Source: an uncultured Flavobacteriales bacterium (GTDB lineage Bacteria; Bacteroidota; Bacteroidia; Flavobacteriales; BACL11). Taken from it: a DNA stretch of 40,042 nucleotides. Position 1 is the stretch's first letter. Each line of letters opens with the position of its first letter. The stretch is from the NCBI GenBank assembly GCA_905478555.1, contig CAJQIZ010000013.1:1-40042 (forward strand), written 5' to 3'. Below the pieces are notes generated by a model that searched no databases, was not told where the DNA came from, and saw only the letters and a program-made list of their open reading frames with translations. Of this stretch, positions 20,418 through 40,042 are shown in pieces. Position numbers and translations under genes: made by a program.

Positions 20418-22262
20418 ATGAAAAGAATAATATTATCAATCCTAATAATTACCTCACTATTCAGTTATTCTCAAGATAGATGTGGAACTGTTCTAAATAC
20501 TTTAGAATTAATAGAACGATATCCTCAGTATGGTGTTGAAAGAGAAAAAGTTAACGTTCAAACCCTGAAATGGATAAAAGATAATCCAGATCATAATGAG
20601 AAAACAATCATTACTATTCCTGTAGTTGTGCATGTAGTATGGAACACAAATGCTGAGAATATTTCTGATGCACAAATATTTTCTCAAATAGATGTATTAA
20701 ATGCTGATTTTAGAAGAACAAATACAGATGCTATTAACACCCCTAATGTTTGGCAGAATATTGCAATAGATTCAGAGATAGATTTTTGTCTTGCTAATAT
20801 TGATCCTAATGGATCTGCTACAAATGGTATTACTAGAACGCAAACTTCTCAGACTTCTTTTTCAATTAATGGTAGTGATATGAAATCTTCATCAAGTGGG
20901 GGAATTGATCCATGGGATAAGGATGATTATCTAAATATTTGGGTTTGTGACTTAACGGGAGGTATTCTTGGTTACGCAACACCCCCCTCTAATTTTAATA
21001 ATCCTCAAGATGGAGTTGTTATTGGATATAAGTATTTTGGTACCATTGGAACTGTACAGTCTCCATATAATAAAGGAAGAACATCAACTCATGAAGTTGG
21101 ACATTGGCTAAATCTTGACCATGTATGGGGAAATGGAAATAATTGTGGGAATGATAATGTTAGCGATACTCCTACCCAAGAAGAAGAAAATTATTCATGC
21201 CCTAGTTTCCCTCATAATGTCAATAGCTGTGGTACGACTAATGCTAATGGTGATATGTTTATGAATTATATGGATTATACTAATGATGCTTGTATGAATA
21301 TGTTTACTGCAGGGCAAAAAACAAGAATGATCTCAGCAATCAATCAATATAGACCTAATCTGTTAAATCATAATCTATGTAGCGGAAGTACTAATCCTGT
21401 TTCTTGGAACTGTCTTAATGGTGGATGTGTAGATCCTGGTACTGGTAATGGAACTTATAGTAGTTATAATGCTTGTTTTTCTGTTTGTGGATGTACAGGA
21501 AATATACCTCCAATTATAGAGGGTTTCCAAAACGGAACACTACCAAATGGTTGGTCAATTGATAATCCAGATGGTAGTGATACATGGATAATTAATTCTA
21601 GTTATGGTTATAATAGTAGTAGTTCAATATCTATTGAAAATTCAGTATATTCAGCTAATGGGCAGTATGATGATTTGAATTCTCCTATAATGAATTTCTC
21701 AAATGCTAATAATATTAATCTAAGTTTTGATTATGCTTATTCATTATGGACTAATCCTAACTCATCTGAAGTTTGGTCAGATACACTTATTATTTTAATT
21801 TCTTCAGATTGTGGAATAACTTGGCAAAAAATATGGGAAGAAGCTGGAGCTAATTTATCAACTACTACTAATATATTTAATGGATTTGAGTGGTTCCCAA
21901 ACAGTAATAATGATTGGGATTCTGAAAATATTAATTTAAGTAATTACTCTAATCTAGATGGGGTAATAGTGAAATTTAGAAATGTAAACCAATATGAAAA
22001 CAATCTCTTCCTTGACAATATTAATATTACTACAGATGGAAGTACTTATATAGATAAAGTGACTGAAAATAGTATAAAAGTATATCCAAACCCGACTAAT
22101 AAAAATATTAATATCATCCATGATGGTTTAAAAGAAATATATACGATTTTAGGAGAAAAAATATTAGAAACATATGAGAATGAAATTAATGTTTCAAATT
22201 TATCAAAGGGAGTATATTTGATAAAGGTAGACAATATTAGCATTCGTCTTATTAAACAATAA
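20418..22262 (+). CDS. M43 (pappalysin-type) metalloprotease with Cys4 repeat and T9SS signal
   Basis: A 614-residue secreted zinc protease. It has a signal peptide (1-18, SYSQ) and an M43 catalytic domain (about 60-315). The metzincin site is H225-E226-x2-H229-x5-H235 (HEVGHWLNLDH), and the Met-turn is at NYMDY. At about residues 329-357 there is one copy of a four-cysteine module (SWNCLNGGCVDPGTGNG...). This is the same module found thirteen times in the large protein at 35580-38945. A MAM or choice-of-anchor-like beta domain follows (about 367-535), then a type A sorting domain beginning VYPNPT near residue 555. It begins the accessory block and is separated from the arylsulfotransferase-like gene by 22 bases. 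Confidence 0.93.
   Translation: MKRIILSILIITSLFSYSQDRCGTVLNTLELIERYPQYGVEREKVNVQTLKWIKDNPDHNEKTIITIPVVVHVVWNTNAENISDAQIFSQIDVLNADFRRTNTDAINTPNVWQNIAIDSEIDFCLANIDPNGSATNGITRTQTSQTSFSINGSDMKSSSSGGIDPWDKDDYLNIWVCDLTGGILGYATPPSNFNNPQDGVVIGYKYFGTIGTVQSPYNKGRTSTHEVGHWLNLDHVWGNGNNCGNDNVSDTPTQEEENYSCPSFPHNVNSCGTTNANGDMFMNYMDYTNDACMNMFTAGQKTRMISAINQYRPNLLNHNLCSGSTNPVSWNCLNGGCVDPGTGNGTYSSYNACFSVCGCTGNIPPIIEGFQNGTLPNGWSIDNPDGSDTWIINSSYGYNSSSSISIENSVYSANGQYDDLNSPIMNFSNANNINLSFDYAYSLWTNPNSSEVWSDTLIILISSDCGITWQKIWEEAGANLSTTTNIFNGFEWFPNSNNDWDSENINLSNYSNLDGVIVKFRNVNQYENNLFLDNINITTDGSTYIDKVTENSIKVYPNPTNKNINIIHDGLKEIYTILGEKILETYENEINVSNLSKGVYLIKVDNISIRLIKQ
21402..21488 (+). repeat. Single Cys4 module inside the M43 protease gene
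   Basis: It encodes one copy of the W(D/N)C...G-x-C-x-DPG-x-G-x-G-x-(Y/F)-S...C-x3-C module that forms the arrays in the gene at 35580-38945. The two genes are about 14 kb apart. Confidence 0.85.
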
Positions 22263-33883: not shown

Positions 33884-35296
33884 TTATTTCAATTCTAGTA
33901 CTACTATATTTTCTACATGATGGGTTTGTGGAAACATGTCAACTGGCTGAATATGAGACACTTTGTATTTCTCATCCATTAAAGCTAAATCACGAGCTTG
34001 GGTAGCGGAATTGCAACTTACATATACTATTCTTTTCGCTCCAATTTTCAGAATTTGTTCTACCACTTTTTTGTGCATTCCATCTCTAGGCGGGTCAGTA
34101 ATTATTACATCCGGAGTACCATTTTTTGCAATGAACTCATCTGTAAAAATCTCTTTCATGTCTCCTGTATAGAAAGTACAGTTTACAATATTATTTCGTT
34201 CTGCATTTTCATAAGCTGCTTTTATTCCTTCCTCAACAGAGTCAATACCCACCACTTTTTTGGAGGATGTAGCTACATATTGTGCAATGGTTCCAGTTCC
34301 GGTATATAGGTCGTACACCAAATCATTTTCAGTAATTTGAGCCAATTCTTTTGTTTTTCGATACAATACTTTTGCTTGTTCACTATTGGTTTGGAAAAAT
34401 GATTTTGCTCCAATTTTAAAGTGAAGGCCATCCATTTCCTCCATTATATAATCTTCTCCATTGTAACAAACAACTTCTTGGTCGTACATGGTATTATTTG
34501 CTTTTTGGTTAATAATATAGAGTAAAGAAGTGATTTCAGGAAAAGAGGTTTTGATGTGTTCCATCAATAGATTGATGCTTTTTATATCGTTTTCATAAAA
34601 CTGAACCAACACCATTAAATCGTTTGTGGAAGAAGTACGGATCATTAAATTCCTTAATAACCCTTCCTGATTACGGATGTCAAAATAAGTAAGTCCTTTT
34701 TCATCAGCAAACTGTTTTACAGAAAGACGAATGGCGTTGGAAGGTTCTTTTTGTAAGTGGCAATTATTTAGGTTAATTACTTTATCAAACATTCCAGGAA
34801 CATGAAAACCAAGAGCATCTTTATCTTCAATTTCTGCTTCCGATTGTACTTCTTCTATGGTAAGCCATCTTTTATTGGAAAAGGTAAACTCCATTTTATT
34901 TCTATAAAAATATTTATTTTCACTTCCAATAATTTCAGAATGGGTTGGTAATTCAATCCCTCCAATTCTTTTTAGGTTGTTGAGTACTTCATTTTGTTTA
35001 AAATTTAACTGAGATTCGTATTTCATGTTTTGCCATTTGCAACCACCACAAGTTCCAAAATGTTCACATTTTGGGTCAGTTCTTTTTTCAGAATAAGTAT
35101 GGATTTTTTCAATTCTAGCTTCCCAAAATTTCTTTCTTCTTTTAAAAACCACAATATCACAAATATCTCCTGGAACGCCTCCTTGTACAAAAATAGCTCT
35201 TCCTTCATGTTTAGCTACTGATTTTCCTTTACTGGCTGTATCAATTATTTCAATATTTTCTATTAAAATAGGCTCTCTTCTGTTTTGTCTTCCCAT
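33884..35296 (-). CDS. rlmD: 23S rRNA (uracil-C5)-methyltransferase, RlmD/RumA type
   Basis: SAM-dependent enzyme making 5-methyluridine in 23S rRNA; cytoplasmic, 470 residues. It starts with a TRAM RNA-binding domain (about 8-65). The iron-sulfur cysteines are C77-x5-C83-x2-C86 (CEHFGTCGGC) and C179 (NNCHL). The SAM site is YDLYTGTGTIAQYVA (about 320-334). ITDPPRDGMHKKV carries the active Asp/Pro motif, and YVSCNSATQARDL holds the catalytic cysteine. Several RumA-like paralogues occur in bacteria, so the exact uridine (1939 or another) is assumed. A decayed copy of the first 20 codons of this gene is found at 39023-39081, upstream of rocD. Confidence 0.93.
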   Translation of the reverse strand: MGRQNRREPILIENIEIIDTASKGKSVAKHEGRAIFVQGGVPGDICDIVVFKRRKKFWEARIEKIHTYSEKRTDPKCEHFGTCGGCKWQNMKYESQLNFKQNEVLNNLKRIGGIELPTHSEIIGSENKYFYRNKMEFTFSNKRWLTIEEVQSEAEIEDKDALGFHVPGMFDKVINLNNCHLQKEPSNAIRLSVKQFADEKGLTYFDIRNQEGLLRNLMIRTSSTNDLMVLVQFYENDIKSINLLMEHIKTSFPEITSLLYIINQKANNTMYDQEVVCYNGEDYIMEEMDGLHFKIGAKSFFQTNSEQAKVLYRKTKELAQITENDLVYDLYTGTGTIAQYVATSSKKVVGIDSVEEGIKAAYENAERNNIVNCTFYTGDMKEIFTDEFIAKNGTPDVIITDPPRDGMHKKVVEQILKIGAKRIVYVSCNSATQARDLALMDEKYKVSHIQPVDMFPQTHHVENIVVLELK

Positions 35297-35330
35297 TCGG
35301 TAAAAGTATAGATTTACTAATTAATTCTAC

Positions 35331-35338
35331 TATATTTA
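35331..35338 (+). promoter_or_regulatory. Relic of the rocD -7 box (TATATTTA)
   Basis: This aligns with the intact TATATTTG at 39116-39123 upstream of rocD. The final G of the consensus has become A, consistent with loss of promoter function in the decayed copy. Confidence 0.5.
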
Positions 35339-35358
35339 TACTTCATAAAATTTAAGAT

Positions 35359-35445
35359 ATATAAATAATAGAATTAGAAGACAATATGGATCGCATATTT
35401 ATTTTCCATACCAATTTTTTATTAAAAATAGAAGGTGTTTTTTCT
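35359..35445 (+). pseudogene. Decayed 5' fragment of rocD
   Basis: This is the remnant of the first roughly 35 codons of ornithine aminotransferase. It aligns with rocD at 39144-39245. The ATG is now ATA (35359-35361), about 12 bases are missing just after it, and there are further small indels. The remaining frame reads ELEDNM... against ALEDKY... in rocD, then LLKIEGVF against VLAKGEGVF. It cannot be translated as a functional protein. It lies between the rlmD start and the large Cys4-repeat gene. Confidence 0.82.
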
Positions 35446-35579
35446 TTTATTGAGATTAAAATATTTATTTACTTTTTTGTTTATTATTTTTGATACAGCT
35501 GACTGATTTTAGATTTCTCATTATATATATCATCATTTAACTTTTTTTTTTATTTTTGTCAAAATTAATTAAAAAAAAT
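35446..35579. other. AT-rich leader before the Cys4-repeat gene
   Basis: The non-coding interval from 35297 to 35579 is 283 bases. Its first part is the decayed promoter/rocD copy. The remainder, described here, may contain further, weaker rocD similarity to about 35505, and carries a possible -7 box TATTTTTG at 35551-35558, 21 bases before the ATG at 35580. I see no other gene or hairpin in it. Confidence 0.5.
35551..35558 (+). promoter_or_regulatory. -7 promoter box (TATTTTTG) for the Cys4-repeat gene
   Basis: A TAnnTTTG match 21 bases upstream of the ATG at 35580, embedded in a T-rich stretch. No -33 TTG is visible, and the T-rich context makes a chance match possible. Confidence 0.4.
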
Positions 35580-38500
35580 ATGAAAAAAATATTTACTCTA
35601 ATCTTTGGTCTTTGCTTTTTTGTAGCAAATTCTCAAAATGCGTGTACTCACACTTTTAATATGTATGATCAATATGGTGATGGATGGAATAATGCTTCTG
35701 TTGATGTAACTGTAAATGGAATAATAGTTGTTTCTGCAGCTACTGGAATTGTTGGTGCTCAAAATAATGTTCCTGCCCCTTGTGGTTCAGAAATTTTTTT
35801 AGCATCTACAGGTGATGCTATTACCCTTTCTAATTGGGTGTCTGGATCTTATGATATAGAGATATCTTGGGATATTAAAGATGATAATGGAACTATAATT
35901 GCTTCTGGAGGAACAATGGTAAATGGTGGAGGATACGGTATGTTAGCCAATTGTAATGGTTCTTGTTCAGGTGTGCCTTCTTCTTGGGATTGTAATGCTA
36001 ATGGAACATGTACTGATCCTGGTGACGGTAGCGGCCAGTTTTCATCTCAATCTGGTTGTTTGAGTCAATGTTTATCAAATCCATCTTGGGATTGTAATGC
36101 TAATGGTACGTGTTCTGATCCTGGTAACGGAAGTGGTCAATATTCTACTCAAACTGCTTGTTTAAATGCTTGTATAGTAATACCATCTTGGGACTGTGAC
36201 GTAGCTAATGGAACATGTGTTGACCCTGGAAACGGTAGTGGACAATATGCAAATTTGAATACTTGTCTAAGTGTTTGTGTAATAACAAATTGGGGATGTG
36301 ATCACACTTTTAATATGTATGATTCGCTTGGTGATGGATGGAATGGTGTTACTGTTGATATAACTGTAAATGGAGTAACAGTCGCTACATCTACTTTAGC
36401 ATCTGGTTCTTCAGGTACAGAAAACTTTCAAGCATTTGGAGGTGACATTATTGACCTTACTAATTGGACTTTTGGTAGTCAACCTTATAGTCAAACTACT
36501 CAAATATCTTGGGATATTAAAGATGGTGATGGAAATATAATTGCTGGAGTAAATTCTAATACTTTAAATAATGTTGGAGCGTTTGGTGGACCTCAATATA
36601 CATCAACTTTTCTACCTATTTTAGGTTTTTGTTCTCCTCCAGCCTCTTGGGATTGTAATGCTAATGGAACATGTTCTGATCCAGGTACGGGATTAGGTCA
36701 GTATTCAACACAAGCTGCTTGTGTGAGTGCTTGTGTAGTAACACCATCTTGGGATTGTGACGGTACTAATGGTACATGTTCTGATCCTGGTGACGGTAGC
36801 GGTCAGTATTCAATTCTGGCTGCTTGTGTGAATTCTTGTATAGTAACACCATCTTGGGATTGTGACGGATCTAATGGTACATGTGTTGACCCTGGAAACG
36901 GAAGTGGTCAATATTCAACTCAAGCTGCTTGTGTAAGTGCTTGTATAGTAACACCATCTTGGGATTGTGACGGATCTAATGGTACATGTTCTGATCCTGG
37001 AGATGGTAGCGGTCAGTATTCAACACAAGCTGCTTGTGTGAGTGCTTGTGTAGTAACCCCATCTTGGGATTGTGATCCTACTAGTGGAACATGTTCTGAT
37101 CCTGGTAACGCTAGCGGTCAGTATGGGTCTCTATCTGCTTGTTTGAGTGCTTGTGTTGCACCAACATCTTGGAATTGTGATCCTAATGGAATCACATGTT
37201 CTGATCCTGGAAATGGTAGCGGTTCGTTTTCATCTCAATCCGCTTGTTTAAGTTTGAGTACTTGCGCACCAATAGTTTCAATGAATAATGATGTTCCTGT
37301 GCATTTTATGATATTTACAGACAGAACAGGTATGGGAACTCCATCTTCACCTAACCCTATGCCAGGTGTATCTGTTTCAATTGCACCACATGTTAGTAAC
37401 CCAAGAAATTATCTTAATCCTGGAAAAATAGTTAGGTTTAAAGCTGGAGTAACTAATTTGTTAAGTACAAATTTGACTTCAGCTCTAATTACTCTATCGT
37501 CAACTTTTAATGATCCTTATGTGACCATTATAAATAACCAGGTTGGATTAAATAATATTACATCAAATGAGACTGAATTTACACTTACTGAATTTGAAAT
37601 TTCAATTGACTCTTCTTGCCCTCCAGGACATATATTCTATGCTAATTTTGAGATAGTGAACCAAATTACTAGCACCACATATAATAGTACAGCTTATCCT
37701 ATATCTATAGAGCCATTTGTCAATGTAGAGCAAACTGTTCCAGGTCTTAGTCCAGGAACAATGATAGATGATGACACTAATCCTGATAGTGACGGAGATG
37801 ATGATCATGTTGTAGATGCTAATGAAATAATAGAAATAACACCTCAACTAGCAGGAGCTTCTTTTGACATTACGAATTTGACAGATTTTGGTGGGAGTTT
37901 TTCCACCACTCATCCTTTTCCAGGACGGGAAGCTGCTTTGTCTGGTTGTTTTTTAAACCTTAATAATTATTCATATATAAATATCTGGGATAACGTACCT
38001 GGAGCTACAGGTGCTAATGTTGTGAGTTGCTTACCAGATTTTTCAATTGCTAATTCCAATTGGTATGTACAACCAATTCAAAATACTGATTATTTATTAC
38101 CAGGATATGATTTTGTTTTTGATTTTAATCATAATATTACTTGTAAATTTGATTTGTTTATAGAATTTGAAGCTGCTATTAGTTGGCATGAAACTAGTAA
38201 TAGTACATATAATGATAGAAAAAGATGGTTAAGTAAAATTACAATTAACCCAAATAGAATACCCTGTCCTATACTATCTTGGGATTGTGACGCTAATGGA
38301 ATGTGTTTCGATCCTGGAACGGGACAAGGCCAGTATTTGTCTCAAGCTGCTTGTTTGAGTGCTTGTGTAGTAACACCATCTTGGGATTGTGATATTTCTA
38401 CTACAAATTGCTTTGATCCAGGAACCGGACAAGGCCAGTATTCAACTCTAACTGCTTGTTTGAATGCTTGTGTAGTATCACCATCTTGGGATTGTAACCC

Positions 38501-38945
38501 AACAAATGGAACATGTTCTGATCCAGGTACTGGTCAAGGTCAGTATTCAACTCAATCTGCATGTTTGAGTGCTTGTGCATCAACACCATCTTGGGATTGT
38601 GATATTAGTAATTTAACATGTTCTGATCCAGGAACGGGTCAAGGTCAGTTTTCTACTCAATCTGCTTGTTTGAGTGCTTGTGTATCAACAAATACATCTT
38701 CATATACTATTAATTCTACCAAGATATTCCCGAACCCTTTTAAAGATAAGGCTATTTTAGAGTTACAAGATAATACAACTCAAAGCGTATTGTTATTTGA
38801 TGTTATGGGCAAATTATTAAGAGAATATGAAGATATAAGTAATAATAAGTTAATTATTGAAAGAGGTTCACTTAGTTCAGGTACTTATATTTTAAAGATC
38901 ATTAATGAAAATTCTATTATAATGCAAAGGATTATTATTGAATAA
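35580..38945 (+). CDS. Large T9SS-secreted protein with thirteen Cys4 repeats
   Basis: A secreted protein of 1121 residues. Signal peptide 1-18 (FVANSQ). Two copies of a beta domain (about 20-130 and 238-355) share the pattern C-x-HTFNMYD-x2-GDGWN...VTVNG. Thirteen modules of about 34 residues (SWDC...GTCSDPGxGxGQYST...C-x3-C, four cysteines each) lie in arrays of 3, 6 and 4. Between arrays 2 and 3 is a 330-residue beta-rich region with a DDDTNPDSDGDDDH acidic stretch that may bind calcium. A type A sorting domain begins IFPNPF near 1047. No catalytic motif was recognised; an adhesin-like or surface structural role is inferred. The frame extends eight codons upstream to a TTG, but the signal peptide begins at the ATG at 35580. 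The gene lies between duplicated rlmD/rocD sequences. Confidence 0.9.
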   Translation: MKKIFTLIFGLCFFVANSQNACTHTFNMYDQYGDGWNNASVDVTVNGIIVVSAATGIVGAQNNVPAPCGSEIFLASTGDAITLSNWVSGSYDIEISWDIKDDNGTIIASGGTMVNGGGYGMLANCNGSCSGVPSSWDCNANGTCTDPGDGSGQFSSQSGCLSQCLSNPSWDCNANGTCSDPGNGSGQYSTQTACLNACIVIPSWDCDVANGTCVDPGNGSGQYANLNTCLSVCVITNWGCDHTFNMYDSLGDGWNGVTVDITVNGVTVATSTLASGSSGTENFQAFGGDIIDLTNWTFGSQPYSQTTQISWDIKDGDGNIIAGVNSNTLNNVGAFGGPQYTSTFLPILGFCSPPASWDCNANGTCSDPGTGLGQYSTQAACVSACVVTPSWDCDGTNGTCSDPGDGSGQYSILAACVNSCIVTPSWDCDGSNGTCVDPGNGSGQYSTQAACVSACIVTPSWDCDGSNGTCSDPGDGSGQYSTQAACVSACVVTPSWDCDPTSGTCSDPGNASGQYGSLSACLSACVAPTSWNCDPNGITCSDPGNGSGSFSSQSACLSLSTCAPIVSMNNDVPVHFMIFTDRTGMGTPSSPNPMPGVSVSIAPHVSNPRNYLNPGKIVRFKAGVTNLLSTNLTSALITLSSTFNDPYVTIINNQVGLNNITSNETEFTLTEFEISIDSSCPPGHIFYANFEIVNQITSTTYNSTAYPISIEPFVNVEQTVPGLSPGTMIDDDTNPDSDGDDDHVVDANEIIEITPQLAGASFDITNLTDFGGSFSTTHPFPGREAALSGCFLNLNNYSYINIWDNVPGATGANVVSCLPDFSIANSNWYVQPIQNTDYLLPGYDFVFDFNHNITCKFDLFIEFEAAISWHETSNSTYNDRKRWLSKITINPNRIPCPILSWDCDANGMCFDPGTGQGQYLSQAACLSACVVTPSWDCDISTTNCFDPGTGQGQYSTLTACLNACVVSPSWDCNPTNGTCSDPGTGQGQYSTQSACLSACASTPSWDCDISNLTCSDPGTGQGQFSTQSACLSACVSTNTSSYTINSTKIFPNPFKDKAILELQDNTTQSVLLFDVMGKLLREYEDISNNKLIIERGSLSSGTYILKIINENSIIMQRIIIE
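35982..36287 (+). repeat. Cys4 repeat array 1 (3 modules)
   Basis: Three in-frame modules of about 102-105 bases, each coding for S-W-D-C...G-T-C-x-D-P-G-x-G-S-G-Q...C-x3-C. DNA similarity between modules is high, consistent with internal duplication. Confidence 0.9.
36645..37271 (+). repeat. Cys4 repeat array 2 (6 modules)
   Basis: Six tandem modules. Modules 5-7 are the most alike at the DNA level (the shared start reads TCTTGGGATTGTGACGG), suggesting recent duplication or gene conversion. The last module ends in an altered SLSTC instead of C-x3-C. Confidence 0.9.
38277..38690 (+). repeat. Cys4 repeat array 3 (4 modules)
   Basis: Four tandem modules marked by DPGTGQGQ, a variant not seen in arrays 1 and 2, which use mostly DPG(N/D)GSGQ. 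This array expanded separately from the other two. Confidence 0.9.
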
Positions 38946-39022: not shown

Positions 39023-39081
39023 AGTGTCAATAATTTTAATATTTTATATTAAAATAGTTTCTCTTCTATTTTTCTACCCAT
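39023..39081 (-). pseudogene. Decayed 5' fragment of rlmD
   Basis: Read on minus from the ATG at 39081, the sequence follows the first 20 codons of rlmD: MGR, then after a one-base deletion RRETILI, a stop where rlmD has Glu, then NIKIIDT. The intact gene reads MGRQNRREPILIENIEIIDT. A further stop follows. This is a clear non-functional remnant between the terminator of the large gene and the rocD promoter. Confidence 0.85.
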
Positions 39082-39115
39082 TCTACAAAATCAGAGATTT
39101 ACTAATTAATTCTAC

Positions 39116-39123
39116 TATATTTG
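39116..39123 (+). promoter_or_regulatory. -7 promoter box (TATATTTG) for rocD
   Basis: An exact TAnnTTTG match, 20 bases upstream of the rocD ATG. The equivalent position in the left copy is mutated to TATATTTA. Confidence 0.55.
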
Positions 39124-39143
39124 CAACACATAAAATTTAAGAT

Positions 39144-40042
39144 ATGAAATCATCAGCAGAATTTATAGCATTAGAAGATAAGTATGGAGCTCATAATTAT
39201 CATCCCCTACCAGTTGTTTTGGCAAAAGGAGAAGGTGTTTTTGTATGGGATGTAGAGGGTAAAAAATATTTTGATTTTCTCTCTTCTTACTCTGCTGTTA
39301 ATCAAGGTCATTGCCACCCCAAAATTGTTGACGCACTTAAAGAACAAGCGAATACTTTAACGCTTACTTCACGAGCATTCCATAATGATGTATTAGGGCA
39401 ATATGAAGAATTTATTACTAAACTTTTTGGTTATGATAAAGTTTTGCCAATGAATACTGGAGTAGAAGGTGGGGAGACTGCTAATAAATTAGCTCGAAAA
39501 TGGGGATACATGAAAAAGGGTATTAAAAAAAATAAAGCTAGAATTATTTTTGCTAAGGGAAATTTTTGGGGAAGAACACTTGCTGCAATTTCTAGTTCTG
39601 ACGATCCTTCCTCTTATGAAGGTTTCGGTCCTTTTATGCCAGGTTATGATTTGATTCCTTATAATGACCTTGAATCACTAGAAAGAGAGCTTAAAGATTT
39701 TAATGTTTGTGCTTTTATGGTAGAACCAATTCAAGGTGAAGCGGGTGTAGTTGTGCCTGATGAAGGTTATTTGTCAGGTGTTAGGAAATTGTGTGATAAA
39801 TATAATGTTTTATTTATTGCTGATGAAGTCCAAACTGGTATTGCCCGTACTGGTAAGATGCTTGCTTGTGATTATGAAGATGCTAGACCAGATTTATTAA
39901 TTCTTGGAAAAGCTATTTCTGGTGGAGTTTTTCCTGTATCAGCTGTATTAGCTGATAACGAAATTATGCTTTGTATTCAGCCTGGAGAACATGGTTCTAC
40001 TTTTGGTGGTAATCCTCTTGCTTGTAAAGTAGCACAAGCTGC
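39144..40042 (+). CDS. rocD: Ornithine--oxo-acid aminotransferase (3' end outside window)
   Basis: PLP-dependent class III aminotransferase that converts L-ornithine and 2-oxoglutarate to glutamate semialdehyde and glutamate in arginine/proline metabolism. About 299 residues are present and the frame is open to the end of the window; family length is about 400-415. Ornithine-specific features are [18 protein letters not shown] near the N-terminus and [20 protein letters not shown]. The PLP-binding region has [12 protein letters not shown] and the Schiff-base lysine in [11 protein letters not shown] (near residue 256), followed by [14 protein letters not shown]. The start ATG follows a -7 box by 20 bases. 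A decayed copy of its 5' end is found at 35359-35445. Confidence 0.95.

Follow-up and report, generated by a model that had tools for sequence, protein, structure and literature searches.

The window, by which we mean the whole 40,042-nucleotide stretch of DNA analysed here from an uncultured Flavobacteriales bacterium, carries repeated copies of a four-cysteine (Cys4) module, an unnamed and unusually minimal extracellular module common to bacterial surface proteins and phage virion proteins. Our favoured explanation, to which we give about an even chance, is that it acts as a disulfide-locked connector where it stands singly and as a stalk where it stands in tandem. According to this proposal, some 31 residues would fold into a beta-hairpin followed by a short helix, with the four cysteines most likely paired in two disulfides, and would make a compact, protease-resistant connector, one copy joining two domains and tandem copies forming a stalk. 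In bacteria the module would usually link a catalytic or adhesive domain to a surface anchor (a tail for type IX secretion, T9SS, or a lipid), and in phages a conserved tail-associated base to exchangeable tips; the likeness of the copies at the DNA level would let them recombine with their neighbours, so that arrays may grow and cassettes may shuffle between genes.

The spacing of the module is near-rigid and reads aromatic-x-C-x(4-10)-C-x-D-P-G-x-G-x-G-x-[YF]-x5-C-x3-C. An earlier note on this DNA, made from the sequence alone, had described four cysteines in about 34 residues; the cysteines stand, and the length is better given as about 31 residues plus a short linker. The CxxxC ending that it proposed likewise applies to Cys4 modules generally and fails in one copy of the window, module 9 (37167-37271), which ends in C-x5-C. 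In the first 150 modules, taken from 64 bacterial ORFs, C2-x15-C3 and C3-x3-C4 are near-invariant. Cysteine fills the columns C1 to C4 in 97.6, 98.9, 99.5 and 95.7%, respectively, of 633 module matches (the bacterial modules together with loci added by pattern searches), and the apparent losses of C4 among them are mostly spacing shifts or cut local alignments. The aromatic residue before C1 is W in bacterial and Y in phage modules. At the DNA level, a pattern for the second half of the module, C-x-D-P-G-x-G-x-G-x-[YF]-x5-C-x3-C, matched 12 times in the window, as against 0 expected from 100 dinucleotide-preserving shuffles.

Thirteen modules lie in one large protein, P0001, in arrays of 3, 6 and 4 between 35982 and 38690; a regular expression returned exactly this count, as first reported, and also recovered the single module previously seen in the M43 protease P0002, now placed at 21402-21494. 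The order in P0001 is signal peptide, GDGWN-type domain, three modules, a second GDGWN-type domain, six modules, a 334-aa region, four modules and a T9SS tail, and its likely start is the ATG at 35580, the ORF list beginning at the TTG at 35556. The features are as follows, those marked (r, p) having been found by both regular expression and profile.

20418-22262, + strand: M43 metalloprotease P0002 with T9SS tail
21402-21494, + strand: Cys4 module of P0002, between catalytic domain and C-terminal domain (r, p)
35580-38945, + strand: P0001, large secreted protein of 1121 aa, start ATG 35580, signal peptide MKKIFTLIFGLCFFVANSQ
35640-35939, + strand: GDGWN-type domain, unnamed, copy 1 (52% identity to copy 2)
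35982-36083, + strand: Cys4 module 1, array 1 (r, p)
36084-36185, + strand: Cys4 module 2, array 1 (r, p)
36186-36287, + strand: Cys4 module 3, array 1 (r, p)
36288-36644, + strand: GDGWN-type domain, copy 2 (matches in 30 of 60 relatives)
36645-36746, + strand: Cys4 module 4, array 2 (r, p)
36747-36851, + strand: Cys4 module 5, array 2 (r, p)
36852-36956, + strand: Cys4 module 6, array 2 (r, p; first in the AlphaFold tandem model)
36957-37061, + strand: Cys4 module 7, array 2 (r, p; second in the AlphaFold tandem model)
37062-37166, + strand: Cys4 module 8, array 2 (r, p)
37167-37271, + strand: Cys4 module 9, array 2, C-x5-C variant (r, p)
37272-38273, + strand: central 334-aa region of P0001 (essentially private to this genome among 60 relatives)
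38277-38378, + strand: Cys4 module 10, array 3, DPGTGQGQ type (r, p)
38379-38483, + strand: Cys4 module 11, array 3 (r, p)
38484-38588, + strand: Cys4 module 12, array 3 (r, p)
38589-38690, + strand: Cys4 module 13, array 3 (r, p)
38724-38942, + strand: T9SS type A sorting tail of P0001 (PF18962 / TIGR04183)

Both P0001 and P0002 are T9SS type A cargo: their sorting domains score above the cut-offs of PF18962 (42.8 and 36.5 bits, cut-off 27) and TIGR04183 (42.4 and 28.8 bits, cut-off 23), and the translocon protein SprA is present in the genome (2645 bits). The GDGWN-type domain of P0001 has no Pfam match; relatives carry it in many repeats within very large proteins (e.g., G015:C2 and G016:C3). 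The profile search that had been suggested for the module, run over the whole genome with a profile of the 14 modules, gave 21 matches, which against the 14 in the window leaves seven further modules; these lie on contigs C12 and C17, in three more proteins, two of FG-GAP type and one Omp28 protein.

The earlier idea that the arrays of P0001 expanded locally is weakly supported, DNA identity being 80.2% within and 77.0% between arrays (permutation p = 0.005); exchange or shared ancestry across the arrays is also visible, from one cross-array pair with 88% DNA identity. Relatedness was read from identity tables, 31-aa modules giving too few columns for reliable tree branches. The gene as a whole is a newcomer at its site, where a degenerate direct repeat flanks it:

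35238-35442, + strand: left copy of the repeat (about 210 bp)
39024-39242, + strand: right copy of the repeat (76% identity to the left copy, E 2e-41)

Each copy covers the beginnings of both neighbouring genes, which from their translations appear to be, on the left, a RumA-type RNA methyltransferase and, on the right, an ornithine-aminotransferase-like gene. In three congeners these two genes are directly adjacent, about 62-65 bp apart, and P0001 is therefore a lineage-specific insertion: a stretch of about 3.7 kb containing it entered the divergent promoter region and duplicated about 210 bp. There is no other ORF of at least 120 aa in the inserted stretch, and hence no transposase is seen there.

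Beyond this genome, the module is found in 37 of 60 relatives, nearly all members of the window's own family included. An order-wide even sample of the Flavobacteriales gave matches in 64 of 395 genomes, of which 49 belong to the own family (52 genomes sampled) and 15 to four other families of the order (ten in f9 and five in f7, f8 and f15). None of the 394 other genomes in a phylum-wide even sample of 395 matched, the window's own genome being the only match. Among named genome records, nearly all that contain the module DNA pattern are assemblies of uncultured Flavobacteriales, Cryomorphaceae or Crocinitomicaceae, and the labels Chryseobacterium gleum, Euryarchaeota and Myxococcales among the matches look like binning or naming errors.

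The company that the module keeps is highly varied. Its carriers include M43, S8, Omp28, Kelch, FG-GAP, PKD, LRR and Reeler/Kazal proteins, as well as arylsulfotransferase-like (ASST), plastocyanin-like and LTD proteins, and these partner domains are unrelated to one another; in uncultured marine Flavobacteriales the module is a swappable building block of many unrelated surface proteins. Of 59 proteins with a complete C-terminus, 48 have their last module at most 94 residues from that end, nearly always 48-94, which is directly before the T9SS sorting tail. Such a position in most of the bacterial proteins could suggest that the module itself belongs to the signal for T9SS export or anchoring, as a pre-tail domain required for secretion. 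We regard this as extremely improbable, since phage-contig and lipoprotein-like carriers have the module without a T9SS tail, by which a general role is largely refuted, and since in several M43 proteases it sits about 257 aa from the C-terminus; in P0002 and in the M43 proteases of its closest relatives it parts the catalytic from the C-terminal domain.

Two further observations concern the ends of these proteins. In the lipoprotein-like proteins L113, L142, L197, L203 and L204 the module alternates with long Gly-Ser (GS)n linkers, and the same proteins end in a short NPxxF/W-like motif. Moreover, a C-terminal tail of about 45 aa, LLKIxDxLGRE...LFYIYDDGTVEKKIIIE, recurs in 51 bacterial ORFs (L049, L059, L064, L066, L071, L073 and others); in the proteins scanned it is covered by neither PF18962 nor TIGR04183 nor any other NCBIfam profile, and may represent a T9SS sorting tail of a class not yet described.

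That the module looked mobile, as the earlier note had put it, is borne out by these varied partners and, most directly, by one genome (G017), whose S8 protease (1224 aa) has only the last 369 residues in common with its Kelch protein (709 aa). This common end, modules included, is 79% identical in protein and, over 1071 bp, 82% identical in DNA; the S8 gene also has 527 bp in common, at 96%, with a third gene, so that entire domain-module-tail cassettes have been copied from one cargo gene to another, unrelated one. The evidence for mobility between genes is stronger than that within P0001. Recombination between similar copies would probably account both for the growth of arrays and for the shuffling of cassettes.

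In a collection of viral sequences the pattern occurred in 102 stretches, with 107 ORFs and 208 modules, and no T9SS tail was seen among the C-termini printed for these 107 ORFs. The largest group is a virion structural protein of about 1615-1630 aa, which belongs to the PHROG structural family phrog_14478 (E 3.6e-223), is related to structural proteins of the Flavobacterium elemo, Cellulophaga phi38:1 and Calle, and Tenacibaculum Gundel phages, and on contig L286 stands alongside a terminase (E 3.2e-95), a portal (E 1e-139) and further structural proteins. A smaller protein encoded downstream has a conserved start of about 60 aa, then 1-8 modules and then differing C-terminal domains, one of which also ends the large phage protein. 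Phage and bacterial modules also agree at positions that the search pattern did not cover, with aromatic-x-C1, T/S followed by L ahead of C3, and Q/E behind C3, and the best phage-bacterium pairs reach 86-89% identity (median best 68%); taken together, these agreements and identities indicate that the two sets are homologous. Bacterial contamination of the viral collection was considered and rejected for the main group, given two recognisable phage protein families in at least 43 loci and the terminase and portal of L286. A few contigs with metabolic genes are less certain; one of them is L312, where two typical modules lie beside metabolic-looking genes and whose viral nature is doubtful. A four-module tblastn query, run with the low-complexity filter on, had no match among cultivated phages and plasmids, and the 28.6 kb examined of the related podovirus MW202828 contained no copy. 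Another short module without a name, CTxPxAxNYxPxAxxDDGSC, was also met both in ORFs of viral contigs (L226, L246, L247, L282, L288 and L317) and in bacterial surface proteins (L051, L091 and L192).

For the fold we rely on prediction. AlphaFold, given the tandem pair of modules 6 and 7 of P0001 with 91 aligned pairs, returned for each module a predicted beta-hairpin plus helix, with pLDDT 83.7; of the five models only two were confident, and the pTM was 0.54, which weighs against the connector. The model of a 212-aa phage module protein (pLDDT 46) was too poor for use. Foldseek gave nothing significant, 10 of its 12 hits being Kunitz domains (E 2.8-9); VIA-align returned only Kunitz rows (Z 2.0-2.4); and against the sequences of the PDB the best profile match had E 0.36 and the second best, again insignificant, was the tick anticoagulant peptide, a Kunitz protein (E 0.69). 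Since some carriers are proteases, one may think of a trimmed Kunitz-type inhibitor that guards surface proteins or controls the proteases carrying it. It seems very unlikely to us: none of the scores is significant, the module with its four cysteines in about 31 residues amounts to about half of a Kunitz domain, defined by six cysteines in three disulfides over about 55-60 residues, PF00014 is reported for none of 42 members at E up to 10 (HMMER filters drop weak matches), most carriers are not proteases, and phage structural proteins have the module too. We treat the Kunitz likeness as a shared arrangement, not as family membership.

Other known families fared no better. The LDL receptor class A profile (PF00057) gave one eight-module protein a weak summed score with zero significant stretches and matched none of the 42 single modules, and the BACON profile of Pfam matched neither P0001, P0002 nor the 42 modules. 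Altogether the matches from Pfam and NCBIfam were confined to M43, the T9SS tail, domains of the partners and chance hits, and left the module uncovered. Hence the first impression that it belongs to no named domain held against both libraries as well as the PDB sequences (E >=0.36), and no description of it was found in the literature searched, whose coverage leaves out most subscription journals.

Two disulfides per module are plausible. Phage proteins, however, are made in the cytoplasm, and their disulfides would have to form after lysis, which speaks against the connector; VKOR was looked for and not found. As the phage copies keep all four cysteines in spite of that reducing compartment, zinc or another metal might be bound instead. 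We consider this quite unlikely, as the module is without Cys-x2-Cys knuckles and the bacterial copies are exported; a Cys-x3-Cys on a helix beside a hairpin is typical of disulfide mini-domains.

The principal competitor to the connector is a ligand-binding adhesion module, probably directed at glycans or a cell surface, whose single copies would target enzymes, whose arrays in P0001 would give avidity and whose phage copies would stick to hosts or particles. The module is present on enzymes that are secreted, on proteins resembling adhesins and on structural proteins of phages; arrays reach 13 copies in P0001, 8 in other bacterial proteins and 10 in phage-contig proteins; and the conserved aromatic (W/Y) beside C1, together with the conserved D-P-G-x-G-x-G loop, could be a ligand site. 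There are precedents in BACON arrays (PMC6949934) and Ig-like adhesins (PMC13370021), thought to act in this way in gut phages. Both the 13 copies in one protein and the presence in virion proteins would also suit a module that binds through avidity, which counts against the connector. On the other hand, the strongly conserved residues are mostly of structural types (Cys, Gly, Pro, Tyr), the module is found mostly at domain joints and less at free ends, a placement for which binding accounts less well, and the exchanged parts adjoin the module and do not lie inside it. We hold binding to be possible, with less credence than the connector.

The connector explains the single copies, the arrays, the position before the tail and the position between base and tip in phages, and, given that the module lies at the joints of unrelated and changing partners, it fits at least as well as binding; the two readings can also be combined. 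Tandem modules would then presumably work as stalks. More tentatively, and with some doubt, we suggest that one connector is common to bacterial surface proteins and to the tail proteins of phages whose host is probably this lineage, serving as an exchange joint for tips. If this is true, bacteria and phages both diversify their surfaces with the same part. Small secreted modules that move among the surface proteins of bacteria are a main route to new surface functions. The module offers one testable part for the diversification of T9SS cargo and for the sharing of surface domains by uncultured Flavobacteriales and phages, and a name for it would bring annotation to hundreds of proteins that at present have none.

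Compared with known systems, the module is like the C-terminal part of Kunitz/BPTI (PF00014) in its predicted hairpin and helix, the helix bearing Cys-x3-Cys, but it has four cysteines instead of six, 31 aa instead of about 55, and neither an inhibitory loop nor a significant score. The canonical Kunitz inhibitory loop is held by C14-C38, for which the Cys4 module has no counterpart. With LDL receptor class A it has the short stretch W-x-C-D-G-x-x-x-C-x-D in common, whereas the spacing and the number of cysteines (four against six) differ. BACON, a beta-sandwich domain, is larger and lacks this four-cysteine pattern. Tandem BACON arrays are associated with tail proteins of crAss-like phages, where a role in host binding has been suggested, and they are the closest precedent for a small tandem module common to Bacteroidota enzymes and phage tail proteins (PMC6949934). 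The Ig-like modular adhesins of gut Bacteroidota phages (PMC13370021) are alike in placing modular surface domains on phage structural proteins. Their fold is unrelated to that of the module. Unlike BACON, the Cys4 module is a cysteine-rich unit of 31 aa that occurs in uncultured Flavobacteriales and in phage contigs from the environment, placed at the joints between domains.
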